Assembly (NCBI GenBank): GCA_016783485.1
Contig: JADHWM010000003.1
Coordinates: 1-59,314 of the forward strand
Direction: 5' to 3'
Origin: Candidatus Bathyarchaeota archaeon
GTDB lineage: Archaea; Thermoproteota; Bathyarchaeia; TCS64
DNA length: 59,314 nucleotides
Below, piece after piece: positions 1,988 to 9,744 of the stretch; within the stretch, counting starts at the first letter, position 1; the number at the start of each line of letters is the position of its first letter. The notes beneath the pieces are model-generated. The model was given only the letters and a program-made list of their open reading frames with translations, did no database searches and was not told the DNA's origin. A program made the translations under genes and the position numbers.

Positions 1988-3184
1988 TCATGGTTGTGGT
2001 TCCTTGGCTAGGAAAAATAGGATGAGCATCGCCATGAGCATCATCGCCCCGTGGGAGAAGCCCATGGCCTGGTACCCTGAGAGGAGAACTATCAGGCCGC
2101 CCAGCCCCGTGCCCAGCACGCCTCCGAGGCTGAATGTGGCCTGGCTGAGAGACATCACCGTTCCCCTGAACCTTGGCACCTGCTCAAGCGTGAGGGCGTT
2201 CGCCGCGGTGAAGACGATGGCCGAGAAGGTGCTCCCCAGGAACCTGGCCCCCGTGGAGAGCCAGAGGTTCGGGATGTTGAGGTAGGCGAAGATGGACAGG
2301 GCGGCCAGGGCGGCGGGCCAGAGCATCGTGGTCTTCCTTCCGAACCGGGAGACGAGGCGTCCGCAGATGCGGGTCCCCGAGATGAAGCAGACCGAGGAGC
2401 CTATGACGAGGAGGGAGGCCTGGGCCGTCGAGAGGCCGAACTGCTCCCTGTAGTAGGAGGGGGCGTAGGAGACCATCGCCATGTATGCAGCGGAGATGAA
2501 GGCAGTGCCAGCTAGGCATGCGACCGCAGAAGTGTTCGTGAGGACTCCCTTGAAGCCCTCCATGAGGCCCGCCCCCTCTCCTCGTTCTCCCTTGTTTTCT
2601 TGTCCCGACGGCACGAACCTGACCGCGAGGAACAGTCCCAGCATGGAGACCGGCAGCACGAACCAGAGGAAAGACCCTCGCCAGCCCACGAATCCGGAGA
2701 TGTATCCTATAATCGGGGCCCCTACGAGGTGGGCGCCCGACATGCCGGCGATGATCCAGCTGAGGGCGTTGGCCCTCTGCTCGGGGGGAAAGTGCTCGGC
2801 AACCAGTGTGAAGGCCATCGGCCCTACGAGGGACCCCGCCATCCCCGTCAGAGCGTAGACGGCGAGGAGCACCGTGAAGCTGGGGGCCAGTATGCAGCCG
2901 GCCGTCGAGGCTACGAGAAGGCCAAGCCCCCCGATGAGCAGGGATTTGGGTCTGAAACGGAGGCTGAGGGCGCTGATAAGGAGGGCGGACAAGACCCCGA
3001 CGATGGAGGCCGCCGTCCCCACCTGCCCTGTGACGCCGACCGCCTGTCCGAAGGATTCGCCTATATCGATGAGGAGGAGGCCGGTCACGATGCCCGGGGG
3101 CATCGTGGCGAAACGGGAGATCACCAGGGACGGGAGGACCATCCGCCCCGGGTTTCCGACCGTTTCGGCCTCAGCGTCGCCCAT
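1988..3184 (-). CDS. Major facilitator superfamily transporter
   Basis: 398 aa with about 12 hydrophobic segments and MFS-type glycine-rich helices. Confidence 0.85.
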   Translation of the reverse strand: MGDAEAETVGNPGRMVLPSLVISRFATMPPGIVTGLLLIDIGESFGQAVGVTGQVGTAASIVGVLSALLISALSLRFRPKSLLIGGLGLLVASTAGCILAPSFTVLLAVYALTGMAGSLVGPMAFTLVAEHFPPEQRANALSWIIAGMSGAHLVGAPIIGYISGFVGWRGSFLWFVLPVSMLGLFLAVRFVPSGQENKGERGEGAGLMEGFKGVLTNTSAVACLAGTAFISAAYMAMVSYAPSYYREQFGLSTAQASLLVIGSSVCFISGTRICGRLVSRFGRKTTMLWPAALAALSIFAYLNIPNLWLSTGARFLGSTFSAIVFTAANALTLEQVPRFRGTVMSLSQATFSLGGVLGTGLGGLIVLLSGYQAMGFSHGAMMLMAMLILFFLAKEPQP

Positions 3185-3291
3185 TCAATTCACCGGCTCC
3201 ATTTTCTCGCTGCTGTGCGTGTTAAAGCCTCAGGTTCTATCCATTATTTATAATGCAGGCTGCCCGCGGGGAGACGTGGTTGACGCCTTCT

Positions 3292-3825
3292 CTATGAGCT
3301 GAAGTAGCCGTCGGCGTCGGTCGTCTCCGGCGGCAGGCCCCTCTCGACCCTCATCTTGGATTCCTCGCCTGCCAGGTACTCGAACCACATCCACCAGTCG
3401 GGGTTGTCGTATCTTTTCCTCTGCTCCTCGATCACGGGCCTCCACTTGCGCCACTGCATGGATGCCCCCAATCCCTGCAGCAGGTGGTAGACGGAGTCCC
3501 GGTCGATGAGCCCCCGGTGCAGGTGGTAGCCGATCCCGTCCAGGTATGTCCACAGGCGGTAGCGTTTGGTGTAGTTGTCCCGGTTCACCGAGGAGTCGTA
3601 TTTCCTCAGGAAATCGTCGTAGTCGGTATATTCGGCCTCGAGGAGTTCGGTGTAGTCGTTGAGCCACTCCTTGGTGAGCAGGTTCTCCCTCAGCTGCATC
3701 AGCGTCTGCGTCCTCCTGGCCTTGTTCGCGTTCCGTATGGTCAAAATGTAGTATGATAATCCCGCGAGGACCCCGAAGATGGCCACAACGTCCCGGGTCA
3801 TCTGCAGTGTGACTGGATCAATCAT
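3292..3825 (-). CDS. Hypothetical protein with N-terminal membrane anchor (DUF4760-like architecture)
   Basis: 177 aa; single N-terminal hydrophobic helix (VVAIFGVLAGLSYYILTI) followed by a charged helical domain. Confidence 0.6.
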   Translation of the reverse strand: MIDPVTLQMTRDVVAIFGVLAGLSYYILTIRNANKARRTQTLMQLRENLLTKEWLNDYTELLEAEYTDYDDFLRKYDSSVNRDNYTKRYRLWTYLDGIGYHLHRGLIDRDSVYHLLQGLGASMQWRKWRPVIEEQRKRYDNPDWWMWFEYLAGEESKMRVERGLPPETTDADGYFSS

Positions 3826-3907
3826 CCTAGATCGAAGATTATGAGGTTGAACTGCGGAAAAGAGTATGGGGGAAGGATGAAAGGTGAAGTGAGGGTAACA
3901 TTATGGA

Positions 3908-4525
3908 TTATAACGTCCATCCGAGTAGCTTAACCGCTTGAATTATGTCTTCCTTGATCATGCGTCTCTTACTTCGTTCAATAAAAAAGGCTGGACCCGC
4001 TTGAAGATACGAAGGAAACACACGGATCTCCCCGTAATAATACTCGTCTCCCCTGATCTTATACGTAGAACCGACTGGAATCACTCGTTCTCCCAGTCGC
4101 CGTTTAGCGATATAGTTGACCGCTTTGATGGCGAAATCACCCATGAGCATGATCACCTTGACGTTGGGGAAAAGGGCCAGTTCTCCTTCGAGGCGATGCG
4201 AGCAGTTCTTTATGGTTGCCGCTTTTACGGTGTATCCCTGTTTTCCGCATTTAATCGCTGTTGTGAAGTAGACTCCTCTCTCGACTAGGTCATTTATTGA
4301 TTCTACTTGGATTCCTGCGTCTTTGAATGCTTGGACTGTGGTTTGGCTGAAAAGGGATTCTTTTCCAGAGTAGTAATAGTCGGTGTGTTCGTGTGGGGCT
4401 GCTTCGGAGACCATGATCATCTGGATGGTTTCTGGGATTATCTCCGCTTGAGGTATGATGTACTTTGAATTGTCTACGTCTAGACATGGGAAAGTGGTGC
4501 AGCTTATGTGTTCACCCGGCTTCAT
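3908..4525 (-). CDS. Uracil-DNA glycosylase superfamily-like protein
   Basis: 205 aa; IMVSEAAP near the N-terminus, TTAIKCGKQGY, and VKVIMLMGDFAIKAVN resemble UDG family 4/5-like motifs. Confidence 0.55.
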   Translation of the reverse strand: MKPGEHISCTTFPCLDVDNSKYIIPQAEIIPETIQMIMVSEAAPHEHTDYYYSGKESLFSQTTVQAFKDAGIQVESINDLVERGVYFTTAIKCGKQGYTVKAATIKNCSHRLEGELALFPNVKVIMLMGDFAIKAVNYIAKRRLGERVIPVGSTYKIRGDEYYYGEIRVFPSYLQAGPAFFIERSKRRMIKEDIIQAVKLLGWTL

Positions 4526-4581
4526 AGAAAATCCTCAGGTACAGTTACGGTGAGGTGAGCATAAGATTGTTGGATTCAAAG

Positions 4582-4678
4582 TTTGGACCGTCAAAAACGT
4601 TATAGACGTAAAGGATCAGTTGTCACTCAAGGTTCTATTGGTTAACTGGTGGAGTCCTAGCCCCGAGGTGGGGGGCTA
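4582..4678 (+). promoter_or_regulatory. Shared upstream element, copy 1 (promoter-like box, AAGGATCA, two stem-loops)
   Basis: TTTGGACCGTCAAAAACGTTATAGAC-GTAAAGGATCA followed by AGGTTC... hairpin and TAGCCCC-GAGGTGG-GGGGCTA hairpin (4658-4678). Aligns with copies at 5069, 5882 and 6518. Confidence 0.75.
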
Positions 4679-4711
4679 TACAAATACCAAGATAGAAAGG
4701 AGACATGAAAC

Positions 4712-5011
4712 ATGAAGGTTGTAAAATACTATGAATTTGCCGTAGAGGATCAAGATGAGATGTTTGAAAAATGGGGAAAGTATCTAGAAAAAAGTGCCAA
4801 GACGCCTGAGAAATATCCAACGTATATTTTTGGACCATCTGCGCTCGCCAAAGTTGGTGAATATATGAAAGGTATCTCGATAATGGAAGTTGACAATGAA
4901 GAGCAACTGATAAACTATTTACTCGAACTCTCACCCCCGCTCAAGGCCAAGTTTGAGCTCTTGTATGATGGCGGAAAGTACGTTCAAGCCTATATGACGA
5001 GGAAGAAATAG
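4712..5011 (+). CDS. Small protein, probable dimeric alpha/beta-barrel (DUF3303/EthD-like) fold
   Basis: 99 aa MKVVKYYEFAVEDQDEMFEKWGKYLE...; AAAGGAG ribosome-binding site just upstream. Confidence 0.65.
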   Translation: MKVVKYYEFAVEDQDEMFEKWGKYLEKSAKTPEKYPTYIFGPSALAKVGEYMKGISIMEVDNEEQLINYLLELSPPLKAKFELLYDGGKYVQAYMTRKK

Positions 5012-5068
5012 CTTGAAGAGTCAATGGATACTATCCCCATCTTTTTTCTTGAAACCCCTCAGAACTTT

Positions 5069-5161
5069 TAGACTATCCAAAATGTTTTAGACCTGAAGGA
5101 TCCGTTGACATTCACGGTTCTACTGGCTAACGGTTGAACCTAGCCCCGAGTTGGGGGGCTA
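5069..5161 (+). promoter_or_regulatory. Shared upstream element, copy 2
   Basis: TTTTAGACTATCCAAAATGTTTTAGACCTGAAGGATCC, GGTTC(5116-5120)/GAACC(5136-5140) stem and TAGCCCC/GGGGCTA stem (5141-5161). Confidence 0.75.
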
Positions 5162-5196
5162 TACAAGTACCAAAGGAGATGAGAAGTGAAACACAG

Positions 5197-5460
5197 ATGA
5201 CTATAGCACAATATTATTTCGACTGGAAGGGACCAAGAGACACAGTGAAGGAATACGGAGAGAAACTAGTAAAAGCCTGTGAGAAAACAGGAACCAAGTT
5301 CCATGGTATTTATGGACCCGGTCAGGACAAATGGAACTTTGTTGCTATGATAGAGGCAGAAGACATGCAAGAATGTATGAAGCCATTTCAAGAAGCTGGT
5401 GGTATGCCTGAAAACATGCCTCACTTCATCGTGAAGTTCTTCAATAAAGTCTACCCCTAA
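5197..5460 (+). CDS. Small protein, probable dimeric alpha/beta-barrel (DUF3303/EthD-like) fold
   Basis: MTIAQYYFDWKGPRDTVKEYGEKLVKACEKTGTKFHGIYGPGQ...; the ORF track start (5134, TTG) lies inside the leader, while ATG 5197 follows AAAGGAGATGAG. Confidence 0.65.
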   Translation: MTIAQYYFDWKGPRDTVKEYGEKLVKACEKTGTKFHGIYGPGQDKWNFVAMIEAEDMQECMKPFQEAGGMPENMPHFIVKFFNKVYP

Positions 5461-5490
5461 ATATTCAATAACCTCCTTCCAGAACCCCCC

Positions 5491-5526
5491 CTCTTTTTTC
5501 TTGAAACCACTCAGATGCTGATTCTA
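5491..5526 (+). repeat. Shared 3' element (T-rich tract plus GAAACCACTCAGATGCTGATTCTA)
   Basis: ctcttttttcttgaaaccactcagatgctgattcta; related copies at 5041-5062 (partial), 6421-6463 and 6881-6929. Confidence 0.7.
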
Positions 5527-5600
5527 AGGATGATTACGAGGAGTTCCATAGTTAGTTGTATATAATTCAATGAGGATTTCTTGAATGAGGAGGCCCATGG

Positions 5601-5837
5601 TTGTCAGTTAAAGACCGGATGGAGGACATGCTGAATGCGATCGAAGAGGCTGGCAGCGATGGTGTTGAGATGAAGGATCTGGTGAAGAATTACTATGAGA
5701 AATGGGGATTCAGGCTGTCTACCATCAAGGGTTATGTTCATGATCTCGAGGAGCTTGAGAAGGTCAGGATTGTGGGGACGAGGATCTACCATGCCAGCTT
5801 TGAACCTCCAAGGGGATTGGTTCGTTCCACCAGATAG
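5601..5837 (+). CDS. Small winged-helix-like DNA-binding protein
   Basis: 78 aa MSVKDRMEDMLNAIEEAGSDGVEMKDLVKNYYEKWGFRLSTIKGYVHDLEELEKVRIVGTRIYH; wHTH-like pattern, TTG start. Confidence 0.55.
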   Translation: MSVKDRMEDMLNAIEEAGSDGVEMKDLVKNYYEKWGFRLSTIKGYVHDLEELEKVRIVGTRIYHASFEPPRGLVRSTR

Positions 5838-5881
5838 TAGTGGGTTTCACGACACTAACATTGTTTCACATATAATCTTGT

Positions 5882-5971
5882 TTTGACTCTCAAAAACGTT
5901 ATAGACCCGAAGGATCAGGTGAAGTTCAAGGTTCTACTATGGTAGTGGAACCTAGCTCCAATGGGGAGATT
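5882..5971 (+). promoter_or_regulatory. Shared upstream element, copy 3
   Basis: TTTGACTCTCAAAAACGTTATAGACCCGAAGGATCAGGTGAAGTTCAAGGTTC...GAACCT stem, then CTCC/GGAG hairpin in place of TAGCCCC/GGGGCTA. Confidence 0.75.
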
Positions 5972-5973
5972 AT

Positions 5974-6354
5974 TTGGTTAAAGTGAATGGAAAAAAAGTG
6001 GAGTGGGATAGAGCACCGAATTTTGTGAATGATGTTCAGAGAAAGGTGCTCTGGAAGGACGAGAAAACAGGAGCTTTGTTCGCTATCTATAGAATCCCGA
6101 AGGGTCTCGACTCTAAAGAACAGTTTCCTCATAGCCATCCCCTTGCGAATCAATTTAGGTTTAACATTTCTGGAGAAATGGAGATGCCTAATGGCACAAT
6201 AATATCATTTTCAGAAGACGATTACGGATTCAATTATTGTCCTAAAAACGAGGAACATGGCGCTGTACCAAAGGGGGTCAAAGTCCACAAGGACTGGATT
6301 TACCTCCACTACTTTGATGGACCCGATGATTGGGATGACTCTGATAGGGACTAG
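5974..6354 (+). CDS. Cupin-like small protein
   Basis: 126 aa; FPHSHPLANQFRFNISGEMEMPNGTIISF...EEHGAVPKG is cupin-like; TTG or internal GTG start. Confidence 0.55.
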   Translation: MVKVNGKKVEWDRAPNFVNDVQRKVLWKDEKTGALFAIYRIPKGLDSKEQFPHSHPLANQFRFNISGEMEMPNGTIISFSEDDYGFNYCPKNEEHGAVPKGVKVHKDWIYLHYFDGPDDWDDSDRD

Positions 6355-6420
6355 CCGGTTATTCATGAGACTTTTTCTTCATAAATCATCAATGGACTCC
6401 TGCTAGCCCCTAATCCTCGT

Positions 6421-6463
6421 TCTTTTTCTTTAAACCACTCCTATGCTGAATCTAGTGAAGAAT
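6421..6463 (+). repeat. Shared 3' element
   Basis: tctttttctttaaaccactcctatgctgaatctagtgaagaat. Confidence 0.65.
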
Positions 6464-6517
6464 AGATCATTGGGGATGAATGAGGTATTATACTTACCAC
6501 AATGCTTGCATATCTCA

Positions 6518-6590
6518 TTTTGACTGTCCAAAACGTTATAGACAGGAAGGATCAGGTGAAGTTCAAGGTTCCGCTGAGATAATGGAACCT
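6518..6590 (+). promoter_or_regulatory. Shared upstream element, copy 4
   Basis: TTTTGACTGTCCAAAACGTTATAGACAGGAAGGATCAGGTGAAGTTCAAGGTTCC...GGAACCT perfect stem; lacks the second hairpin. Confidence 0.75.
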
Positions 6591-6609
6591 GGATCAGAGG
6601 TTGAAGAAA

Positions 6610-6870
6610 ATGCCTGAAATGAAATATTTCATCGTATACGCAAACTGGAAACCAGAAATTCAAGGACTAGACAGCGTGAAGGAAGCCATGGAGAAATACA
6701 CGAAAGTAATCGAAGAGGCTGGATGCAAAGTGAAGCTCTGGGGTTCAGCTCTGGGTGTTCCAGAGACTGCGCTAATCGTCATAAAAGGCAGTCCTGAAAA
6801 CTACTTGAAATTACTCCCACTACAGGCACCGTATACGAACACAAGAACCCATGTAGTGCTAACGTTCTAA
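6610..6870 (+). CDS. Small protein, probable dimeric alpha/beta-barrel (DUF3303/EthD-like) fold
   Basis: MPEMKYFIVYANWKPEIQGLDSVKEAMEKYTKVIEEAGCKVKLWGSALGVPETALIVIKGSPENYLKLLPLQ; preceded by GAGG. ORF track starts 9 nt earlier at TTG. Confidence 0.65.
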   Translation: MPEMKYFIVYANWKPEIQGLDSVKEAMEKYTKVIEEAGCKVKLWGSALGVPETALIVIKGSPENYLKLLPLQAPYTNTRTHVVLTF

Positions 6871-6880
6871 ACAAAAGACT

Positions 6881-6929
6881 CCCCTTTTTTATGAAATCAC
6901 TCAGATGCTGATTCTAGTGAAGAAAAGAG
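6881..6929 (+). repeat. Shared 3' element
   Basis: cccctttttt-atgaaatcactcagatgctgattctagtgaagaaaagag; the adjoining gaaaagagtatgggg also occurs near 3855-3872. Confidence 0.65.
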
Positions 6930-7314
6930 TATGGGGACAGGCATCCACCCGTGAACCCTCCCCAAACAACCCTAAACACCAAAACAACCCACAAAACAAA
7001 CCCTGATAGAGGGGGGGAGGGGGGGGGTCATGCATCGGAACCTGAATAATCAATCCCTAGACGAAAGGAACCTGAAACCCCTCCCGATCACCATCGAATC
7101 ATGTCAAAAGGAGCACTTATACATACCCAAAAAACGCCCCACCAGAGGAGGCTCCTCCACAAGCCACAGAGGCTCCATTCATGCAACCCAGAAGCTATCA
7201 AGAACCAAACAACAACAAAACAAACCAGAAAAAACCCCCCAAAACCAAAAATAACCCACAAAACACCCCTAACCACACCACCCACCCCAGGAAAAAAATC
7301 CACCACATAAAAAG

Positions 7315-7389
7315 TGGGCCGGGCCGGATTCGAACCGGCGGCTTCCGCCTCGTAAAGGCGGCGTCCTAACCAGGCTGGACCACCGGCCC
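7315..7389 (-). tRNA. tRNA-Val (anticodon UAC)
   Basis: Reverse complement GGGCCGG TG GTCC AGCCTGGTTA GGAC G CCGCC TTTACGA GGCGG AAGCC GCCGG TTCGAAT CCGGC CCGGCCC A: all four stems pair perfectly; no encoded CCA, no intron. Confidence 0.95.
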
Positions 7390-7421
7390 CCAGATACAAC
7401 ACCCGCAACCCAAATATACAA

Positions 7422-7949
7422 CTATCGAGAACCCAGCATCCCCACGATCTCCCCGTGGAGCGCCCACATACGCGCCACCGCCGGGTGGTCCTCCCCCAGC
7501 TCCTCCGCCATTCTCCCTACCGTCACACCGAACTCCACCTCCCCCGCCCCCTCAGCCAGTTTATCAGCGTAGCACACCAGCTTCTCCTCCAACGAGTCAG
7601 GCACATACACGCCCACGGGTAACCCCAGCTCCAACGCCTCATCCGCCGGGATGCCCGCCCCCACATGCCTCTCGATGATCCTTACCACGGCCAACGGGAG
7701 CCCCAGCCCCCTCGCCAACTCCCCCCCCACAGCCCCATGCCCGATGCCATGAGTGACGCTCCTACCCAGATCATGGAGCAACGCCCCCGCCTCCACCAAA
7801 GCGAGATCCACATCGAACCCCGCATCGACAAGCTCACCCCCGATCCGAGCAGCCAACCCCGCCACATTCACACAGTGACGGACAACCCCCCGACTGCACC
7901 CAGCATCCCTAAGAATCCCCAGGGCCTCACCCCGCCCCGGGAGGCTCAA
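7422..7949 (-). CDS. HD/HDIG-domain phosphohydrolase-like protein
   Basis: 175 aa; HCVNVAGLAARIG...LLHDLGRSVTHGIGHGAVGGELARGLGL HD motif. Confidence 0.85.
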   Translation of the reverse strand: MSLPGRGEALGILRDAGCSRGVVRHCVNVAGLAARIGGELVDAGFDVDLALVEAGALLHDLGRSVTHGIGHGAVGGELARGLGLPLAVVRIIERHVGAGIPADEALELGLPVGVYVPDSLEEKLVCYADKLAEGAGEVEFGVTVGRMAEELGEDHPAVARMWALHGEIVGMLGSR

Positions 7950-8464
7950 GCCTCGAGCTCTCCCTCGATCTCCTCGATCTTTCCCTCGAGGAAATCAATG
8001 TAAACCTCATTATCCACCGGCTTAAGGGGCTCCCCGCAAACCGGACAATTAAACACCATATCCATGGCCTCCTCGAAAGTGATCCGGGGGCACTCCCCCG
8101 ACCCACAACGATAGAACTCGTGATCCAGCTCATGCCTCAGCCTCGTCTTCAGCTTCCTCAGGATCTTACCCTTCATCCCCGTAATGAAAGCCTCGATCAA
8201 CTCCTGCTGGAGCCTCCACTGAAAAATGAACCAACCAGTATCTTTATCCCTGAACCGCCTAGACGTCACCAGGCTGTGATTATAGAACCGGTAAAGGATC
8301 TTCCTAACCTCGTTTATCTGTATCTCCGTCTGCTCTGCGATCTCCTCCACCGTGATCTCATTCACACTCCTGATCGCATCTATTATCATGACCCCCTCCT
8401 CCCCCCCGAGGATCAACGCGATCTGGTCCACGGTCTCATCGCTGACATTACTATACAAGCTCAT
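7946..8464 (-). CDS. tfe: Transcription initiation factor E, alpha subunit (TFE)
   Basis: 172 aa; N-terminal wHTH and C-terminal zinc ribbon (YRCGSGECPRITFEEAMDMVFNCPVCGEPL). Confidence 0.9.
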   Translation of the reverse strand: MSLYSNVSDETVDQIALILGGEEGVMIIDAIRSVNEITVEEIAEQTEIQINEVRKILYRFYNHSLVTSRRFRDKDTGWFIFQWRLQQELIEAFITGMKGKILRKLKTRLRHELDHEFYRCGSGECPRITFEEAMDMVFNCPVCGEPLKPVDNEVYIDFLEGKIEEIEGELEA

Positions 8465-8512
8465 GACTCTTCCCGGATTCCACTATAATAGCCACATCGC
8501 CGGACTTAAAGC

Positions 8513-9034
8513 TTAAACCCCGGCCTCGACCCGCTTCCCCCTGGCCTGGGGGACCACCCTCTTCCTCGCCCCCTGGAACGAAATCCCCGGCTCCTTCCCC
8601 TCCCGGAGCTCGTGGAGGAACACCGCCAATGCGCTCACCTCCGAATGGGGCTGAGAAGTCACGCCCACATTCCAATCCACCATACCAAATATCTCCCCCG
8701 GCACTTTCGCGCCCCCAACGACCACAAGGAGATCCGAACCCTCCCCCCTGATCTCGGGGATCACCTCCTGAACCGGGAGCCCATACATGGTGAGATGAAC
8801 GACCCGCCCTCTCCACCCAGAGATCACGCTCCTCCACCTCTCGGAGAACTCGAAAGTGAAAGGCCCCCCCCACTCCGAGACAACCCTACCGATCGACTCC
8901 TCTAGGCCCGGGTCCCTATCCCCCGTATAGGTGGCTCCCGAGGCCCCGAAAGCCCGAGCCGCCAAGACCACGTGGGTGCTCAGCCGCTTATCCCTGGAGG
9001 GGCGATGCCCGAGGCGGAGGACGTGCACATCCAT
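8513..9034 (-). CDS. trm56: tRNA (cytidine(56)-2'-O)-methyltransferase (aTrm56)
   Basis: VLRLGHRPSRDKRLSTHVVLAARAFGA and GGAKVPGEIFGMVDWNVGVTSQPHSEVSALAVFL are aTrm56 signatures. Confidence 0.9.
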   Translation of the reverse strand: MDVHVLRLGHRPSRDKRLSTHVVLAARAFGASGATYTGDRDPGLEESIGRVVSEWGGPFTFEFSERWRSVISGWRGRVVHLTMYGLPVQEVIPEIRGEGSDLLVVVGGAKVPGEIFGMVDWNVGVTSQPHSEVSALAVFLHELREGKEPGISFQGARKRVVPQARGKRVEAGV

Positions 9035-9129
9035 ACCGTGGGAAAGGAGCCGAGGGACCTAAGCCTTTTCGGTCCCAGCAAGCGACCACACCGTTAAATC
9101 CCTGAAGGACCAAACTCACCGTCGATCCC

Positions 9130-9744
9130 ATGGCCGCGCGAGACGAGGAGATACCGAGCCTCCCACTCCACACCCGGAGGAGAGTCCTCGGCTACCTCGT
9201 GCCCCTCCTCAGCTTCCCCATCCTCATCTGGAAGGCCTACTCCATCTCCCTCATCCTATCCCAACCCAGCCCCCAGCTGGTCGGCCCGGAGCTCCTCAAC
9301 GACCTCATCACTATCTCATTCAGCCTCGTGCTCCTCCTCCTCATCCCCCACCACAGCCCCCTCTACACCAACCGCTGCTGGCTGACCCCCAAAGGCCTCA
9401 AGATCACCCGCACCCTCAAAGGAACCAAGATCCTCCCATACGACACGATAGACCGACTGGAACTCTTCATCCGAGACGAGAGACAGGGGAAACCCTCCAA
9501 GGAAGCCCTCCAATACGCGAGGGACCACGTCAACGATCTCCGGAAAACCGGATTCAAATTCATCGACTACACAAACAACGAGACCAAGATAGCCCTCATC
9601 TACACCGGAGAAAAGATCTACATGATCACCCCCGCCAACCCCAAGGCATTCGCCCAGAAACTAGGGAACCGTATCAGGAAACTCGGCGTCAAGACAGTCA
9701 CCCTCACCCCGAAGGGAACTCGCGTCAAAGAGGGCGCCCCGTGA
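9130..9744 (+). CDS. Membrane protein with two N-terminal TM helices and PH-like domain
   Basis: 204 aa; two hydrophobic segments, then LTPKGLKITRTLKGTKILPYDTIDRLELF. Confidence 0.6.
   Translation: MAARDEEIPSLPLHTRRRVLGYLVPLLSFPILIWKAYSISLILSQPSPQLVGPELLNDLITISFSLVLLLLIPHHSPLYTNRCWLTPKGLKITRTLKGTKILPYDTIDRLELFIRDERQGKPSKEALQYARDHVNDLRKTGFKFIDYTNNETKIALIYTGEKIYMITPANPKAFAQKLGNRIRKLGVKTVTLTPKGTRVKEGAP

Follow-up and report, generated by a model that had tools for sequence, protein, structure and literature searches.

A low-GC island of putative single-gene expression cassettes with shared promoter, RNA leader and 3′ modules in a Bathyarchaeia genome

We have analyzed a 59,314-nucleotide (nt) stretch of contig JADHWM010000003.1 (assembly GCA_016783485.1, forward strand) from Candidatus Bathyarchaeota archaeon, hereafter the window, in which an array of four small genes carries repeated control sequences. 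Sequence comparisons make it probable, in our view, that this array belongs to an island that was acquired horizontally and is made up of single-gene expression cassettes with common control modules. The modules recur in other genomes, their RNA contains a structure with covarying pairs, the region is foreign in base composition, and at one position the gene has been exchanged between intact flanking modules.

Each of the four units starts with a leader on the + strand, at 4582, 5067, 5881 and 6518. The leaders are 76–88% identical over 59 nt, compared to 20–22% identity between the encoded proteins, which bears out a preliminary description of the region in which four near-identical leaders were said to be far better conserved than the proteins. 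The leader proves to be a composite of three separable modules with differing distributions: a promoter with a palindromic box and TATA, a hairpin (H1), and a second hairpin followed by a tail (H2-tail). The full H2 with its conserved tail is present in units 1 and 2, partial in unit 3 and absent from unit 4. The genes behind the leaders were first described as three alpha/beta-barrel-like and one cupin-like; we find three small dimeric alpha-beta barrel (DABB)-like proteins and one Cupin_7-like protein, whose match lies below the Pfam cut-off. The T-rich tract and shared 3′ element reported downstream of the units are likewise present, in four copies at 5034 (truncated), 5486, 6414 and 6881. 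The distance from the end of H1 to the start codon is ~20–56 nt across the units, compared to the 5–40 nt given earlier for the gap between leader and coding sequence. The features of the array, including the parts of the 3′ element (L and R1) and the positions at which homology to the sister genome G001 starts and stops, are as follows.

4582–4640, + strand: leader 1, with palindromic box, B recognition element (BRE)/TATA (AAAACGTTATAGA), conserved spacer and start of H1
4631–4657, + strand: hairpin H1 of unit 1
4659–4688, + strand: hairpin H2 and tail of unit 1; proposed pseudoknot between 4667–4670 and 4685–4688
4712–5011, + strand: unit 1 coding sequence, DUF3303/DABB-like, 99 amino acids (aa)
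5034–5066, + strand: 3′ element 1, a T-tract and truncated L, running straight into leader 2
5067–5125, + strand: leader 2
5116–5171, + strand: H1, H2 and tail of unit 2
5197–5460, + strand: unit 2 coding sequence, DABB-like, 87 aa
5486–5536, + strand: 3′ element 2; homology to G001 begins exactly at its L part (5500)
5881–5939, + strand: leader 3; homology to G001 ends at 5935
5930–5970, + strand: H1 and degenerate H2 of unit 3
5974–6354, + strand: unit 3 coding sequence, Cupin_7-like, 126 aa; G001 has a DABB-like gene at the equivalent place
6414–6472, + strand: 3′ element 3; homology to G001 resumes at 6420
6518–6576, + strand: leader 4
6567–6589, + strand: H1 of unit 4, which has no H2
6610–6870, + strand: unit 4 coding sequence, DABB-like with predicted ferredoxin fold, 86 aa
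6881–6936, + strand: 3′ element 4, a T-tract and L (to 6916) and R1 (6917–6936); right end of the island

Contig 50 of G001 is syntenic with the window to the right of the island, with 93% identity over 4.8 kb. Homology between the window (genome G000) and G001 begins at 5500, the left edge of L and the first base of CTTGAAACCACTCAGATGCTGATTC, runs through a winged-helix-like gene into leader 3, and breaks off within the first arm of H1, at 5935. From the T-tract of the 3′ element (6420) it continues through unit 4 as far as 6914, the end of L. The cupin gene of the window lies in the interval 5935–6420, where G001 has a DABB-like gene. Here, the coding part has changed while the leader and the 3′ element stayed, in agreement with the earlier proposal that control parts were duplicated or exchanged independently of the coding part. 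This is difficult to reconcile with an ordinary regulon, in which a common promoter and terminator would have spread by local duplication and mobility would not exceed background gene transfer, since unrelated genes stand behind the same leader at one orthologous position; that alternative seems unlikely to us. A comparison with G002 for an empty site was uninformative owing to rearrangement of the locus in that genome. In G001, two degenerate L copies (L077, 9098 and 8622) flank a cupin-like gene on the reverse strand, and a second cupin gene copy in G000 (L047, C25, ~6620–7100) has a leader without H1 and H2 and contains an in-frame TAG.

The H2-tail module (AGCUCCGAGGUGGGGAGCUAUACAAGUACCAAG) has covarying stem pairs. 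When all leaders were aligned automatically, H1 was misplaced and no consensus structure emerged. Base pairs were therefore tallied in two sets, one of sequences matched in H1 length (alignment A7: 11 sequences, 17 pairs) and one limited to H2-tail (A8: 30 sequences, with six pairs in the stem and four in the pseudoknot). The paired cells amount to 94.6% in A7, compared to 36–60% when slid, and to 94.0% in A8, compared to 33–58%, a control that favors the structure as it was derived from some of the same sequences. The covariation score of A7 was reached by none of 500 shuffles. A8 contains five pairs with two-sided changes, compared to 1.1 in shuffles (0 of 500), a count that was not significant against shuffles at an earlier stage with 19 sequences and became so at 30 after more distant families were added. 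Four of these five pairs are in the H2 stem, whose six pairs are independently recovered by RNAalifold. The pseudoknot between GGUG in the H2 loop and UACC in the tail is graded as probable, because its single two-sided pair is weaker support than that of the stem; 89% of its cells are paired.

The structure is thus conserved by compensatory changes, and the element lies between the promoter and the start codon, as a cis-regulatory RNA of the 5′ untranslated region (UTR) requires, the transcript start being predicted. H2 starts 51–57 nt before the start codon in 23 of 28 cases, with a tie-break that favored ~54 nt where several start codons were possible; in cases with a single candidate the distance is mostly 53–55 nt, with L211 (55) and L223 (70) noted as exceptions. 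A structure-aware model locates H2-tail upstream of genes from five families of Bathyarchaeia (f1, f3, f10, f12 and f25) and in record CP070751 (G257), often with another promoter or without H1. Whole-model matches in f3, f10 and f25 are weak (E 5e-4 to 7e-3), with a ~33-nt core that is nearly identical by sequence. One gene of G246 and G013, which belong to different families, is 88% identical at the protein level and has H2-tail 5′ of both copies, a pattern that fits transfer of the gene and the RNA element together. H2-tail also precedes ~500-aa secreted repeat proteins in two families (L162, G000 C97, 2034, − strand; L208, G245). Rfam 15 gave no credible match at E up to 1 for window positions 3000–9500 or for L203, L205, L209 and L216, and the H2 pattern had no match in viral contigs. 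The structured RNA leader seems undescribed.

A compact covarying hairpin with a probable pseudoknot and a near-invariant loop and tail, placed in the 5′ UTRs of many unrelated genes, could be a ligand-binding riboswitch whose ligand defines the system. The preQ1-I riboswitch is an H-type pseudoknot in the 5′ UTR, and H2-tail recalls such elements in size and shape, with a small stem-loop and, just 5′ of the region where the ribosome binds, an A-rich tail to which the loop pairs. In contrast to preQ1-I, H2 is archaeal, its sequence is unrelated, and its Shine-Dalgarno sequence lies outside the pseudoknot. Its target genes do not belong to one pathway, no expression platform is obvious, and a constitutive translation enhancer or a protein-binding site fits equally well. 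The stem variants of u1, u2 and G13_9060 are unmatched in the Shine-Dalgarno region, which leaves a simple anti-Shine-Dalgarno switch unsupported. We therefore regard a riboswitch as rather doubtful.

The promoter module contains an inverted repeat centered ~11 nt 5′ of the TATA-like TTATAGA in 24 leaders, perfect in some as TTTGGACTGTCCAAA. This palindromic box (TTTGGAC-T-GTCCAAA) sits just upstream of BRE/TATA, and is 61% self-complementary at its center, compared to mostly 15–40% elsewhere. Archaeal BRE/TATA promoters can have upstream activator sites, and the leader resembles them in its A-rich BRE, its TTATAGA, its 21–25 nt start spacing and its upstream inverted repeat. The box stands where an archaeal activator could bind, a point in favor of an ordinary regulon. 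Unlike in ordinary archaeal promoters, the conserved block reaches through the spacer to the predicted start and is common to unrelated genes across distant genomes. H1, which follows, has a mean folding z of −3.3 over 26 hairpin sequences compared to simple mononucleotide shuffles. The center of the TATA-like site is 21–25 nt from TTCAAGG, 5′ of H1, in 9 of 15 measured cases from a scan that took in 24 of 31 loci. H1 is predicted to be the transcript 5′ end because this spacing holds both in the leader promoter type and behind TTAAATA promoters. Separately, TGTTTCACGTGAAACA occurs 5′ of leader 3 in G001 (L077, ~9990–9970, − strand) and is degenerate in the window (~5863–5880) and in G013 (L085, ~15135, − strand); it is identical to the bacterial parS consensus, and could be a chance match or the palindrome of another factor.

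The 3′ element is present in 43 copies among the fetched loci, mostly ~10–65 nt past the stop codon of a same-strand gene. The genes preceding it encode DABB/GYD, SnoaL/DUF4440, cupin, alpha/beta hydrolase, DUF362-like, flavin reductase, C_GCAxxG, secreted and membrane proteins (some assigned by eye). L (CTTGAAACCACTCAGATGCTGAT), on the left of the element, is constant, and R1, R2 or R3 often makes up the right part; a recognizable R is attached to 20 of the 43, and R elements are also found alone. Such conserved DNA downstream of a terminator is not expected of an ordinary regulon. The L pattern had no match in viral contigs. R1 has 71 matches with up to three mismatches in seven of nine genomes, and a reversed-pattern control gave none in any genome. 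Solo R1 in reverse usually lies ~23–50 nt 5′ of a start codon, often that of a DUF4760-like membrane-protein gene, and may be the promoter of another gene group. This placement weakens the idea that R elements are directional cassette sites only, and its resemblance to another promoter class would suit an ordinary regulon. The DUF4760-like family (window 3292–3825, − strand; L180, L181, L182, L184, L187, L189, L085, L159) is apparently expanded in these genomes, and its genes are repeatedly preceded by R1 in reverse. Positions 1600–5400 of L159 (G013 C99) hold tandem genes that each have a reversed R1 or R2 on their upstream side, and that share a further promoter-like stretch, GTTTTAAGCGGTGATGCGCCCC.

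A sequence-only model of the leader has strong matches in only 6 of 257 Bathyarchaeia genomes (G000, G001, G003, G006, G013 and G016), all of one family, and the matches are often clustered. The leader is not a chance pattern, since matches in other genomes reach E 1e-17 and the R1 control gave none. In the preliminary description, a lack of further leader copies in relatives and of co-expression would have pointed to recent local duplication only; such copies do occur in relatives. Three more leaders are found in CP070751 (5.16 Mb), whose Thermoplasmata label is the record's own; its loci have a uniform 40–43% guanine-plus-cytosine (GC) content. The presence of leaders in a record that carries the label of another archaeal phylum also argues against an ordinary regulon. 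Most of its 3′ elements and two of its three leaders lie within a 0.3-Mb stretch (C1, 1.63–1.94 Mb), on both strands. Among 400 sampled genomes of the class of that record, the full leader model matched only CP070751 itself, and plasmid and phage records gave no match. Viral carriage was rejected, as four exact leader-pattern matches in viral contigs were judged to be chance, with the rest of the leader missing around them. Likewise, five of eight leader-pattern matches among genome contigs (Bacteroidales, Saprospiraceae, Bacillus, Kordia and Thermoanaerobaculia) are likely chance, given the expected rate of the pattern. The earlier suggestion of an undescribed regulon or cassette system stands to the extent that Rfam and a literature search limited to open-licence papers and a few word combinations gave no earlier description; its single leader and 3′ element are now resolved into a composite leader and into L with alternative R1, R2 or R3.

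Small diverse genes with a recurrent 3′ element, breakpoints at the element edges and a patchy distribution are also features of an integron-type system, in which L/R would be an attC-like site-specific recombination site and a tyrosine recombinase would move the cassettes. Archaeal integrons exist, including in Thermoproteota (PMC9668308). Integron cassettes resemble the island in forming arrays of small, mostly single, diverse genes that spread between distant lineages. Unlike integron cassettes, those of the island often have their own promoter and structured 5′ UTR, and their genes are in both orientations rather than promoterless and co-oriented. G006, a single contig (92% complete), has 18 R1 and three 3′ elements and no match to PF00589; nor has G003, the other single-contig carrier (76%), in a search that used PF00589 rather than IntI-specific models. 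PF00589 matches in other genomes are unlinked to the elements, except for one ~1.2 kb from a G001 leader. At that locus (L086, G001 C13, 12045–14200), a ~420-aa tyrosine recombinase is separated from the leader by a reverse nitroreductase-like gene. The attC core pair RYYYAAC/GTTRRRY was not seen by eye in the L/R or leader consensus, an inspection made without an attC model. Given the lack of a tyrosine recombinase in G006 and the own promoters and mixed orientation of the cassettes, integron membership is not supported, and we consider it the most improbable of the alternatives.

The island that holds the array, at ~3850–6940, is a larger foreign segment than first described and has the lowest GC content of the window (42%, whereas 2.4-kb windows right of 7000 average 59.6% with an s.d. 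of 3.3). A whole island of foreign composition is again not what an ordinary regulon would predict. Two R1 copies bound it, with 15 identical bases, GAAAAGAGTATGGGG, common to both (3857–3871 and 6922–6936). Its remaining features and its surroundings are listed below.

~3850–6940, no strand: low-GC island holding the cassette array, defined by base composition; its ends coincide with R1 copies
3852–3871, + strand: left R1 copy, which differs from GTGAAGAAAAGAGTATGGGG at three positions and also lies upstream of the DUF4760 gene at 3292–3825 (− strand)
3884–3909, + strand: R3 element
3908–4525, − strand: uracil-DNA-glycosylase-superfamily (UDG-like) gene within the low-GC island, divergent from unit 1 (Pfam PF03167, 6.5e-07)
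4549–4576, + strand: degenerate R3-like stretch directly 5′ of leader 1, read from the sequence
5601–5837, + strand: winged-helix-like gene, 78 aa, inside the array without a leader of its own; assigned by eye, no Pfam match
7314–7389, − strand: tRNA-Val (TAC), with which the conserved chromosomal genes begin to the right of the island

The unit 4 protein is predicted to have a ferredoxin-like DABB fold, based on an AF2 model (pLDDT 82) with β-α-β-β-α-β topology that resembles dimeric ferredoxin-like proteins and antibiotic monooxygenases. A PDB profile search with the DABB proteins returned repeat-protein noise only. Many cassette proteins belong to the DUF3303/GYD/NIPSNAP-like dimeric alpha-beta barrel group or share its fold; unlike known members, the three DABB-like proteins of the window are below Pfam detection. 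Many proteins of the DABB fold act on small reactive or aromatic compounds, an activity that might suit a stress or detoxification response.

In the cassette interpretation, each cassette would bring its own control parts: promoter, 5′ UTR, accessory gene, terminator and L. The palindromic box just 5′ of BRE/TATA would be bound by one activator, making the cassettes a regulon. The 5′ UTR would open with H1, followed in many members by H2, whose loop would pair with the tail ~50 nt before the start codon. This 5′ RNA would control stability or translation, and the near-fixed distance to the start codon points to translation. The accessory gene, mostly a small DABB/GYD/DUF3303, SnoaL, cupin or similar gene, would be followed by the T-tract terminator and then by the conserved DNA element L, often joined to the boundary sequence R1, R2 or R3. 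The repeated ends would be the places at which cassettes recombine, by homologous recombination or through the action of some enzyme. The strongest form of this proposal is an undescribed archaeal system that moves accessory genes between L and R by dedicated, non-integron recombination, with each gene subject from the outset to a common activator and to regulatory pseudoknot RNA of a new class; as a whole it is a tentative suggestion that we think unlikely, about on a par with the ordinary regulon.

Several observations weigh against this interpretation. The breakpoints were mapped in a single sister pair, and could be explained by nothing more than homologous recombination between the repeated modules. 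Since unit 4 lacks H2 and unit 3 has a degenerate one, H2 is not required by every cassette. No shared regulator was found for the cassettes: the winged-helix-like gene within the array is present only in G000, G001 and G011 (3 of 27 family genomes) and, being absent from most carriers, is ruled out as the common regulator. The distance from TATA to TTCAAGG falls outside 21–25 nt in 6 of 15 cases (18 and 32–42 nt), among them L137, where the scan skipped a TTAAATAT at the usual spacing. Finally, in folds of the full UTR, u1 and the G003 copy each have a minimum-energy structure without H1.

The region offers a concrete case of uncultured archaea importing genes that are ready to express, with promoter, RNA leader and terminator attached, and it contains a compact new RNA motif with measured covariation. 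Under the strongest form of the proposal, imported genes would become part of one response as soon as they arrive. Should the promoters answer to one signal, the motif would tie many unannotated DABB, SnoaL and cupin genes into a single response. The set of elements also provides search models for further islands in Bathyarchaeia and their neighbours.

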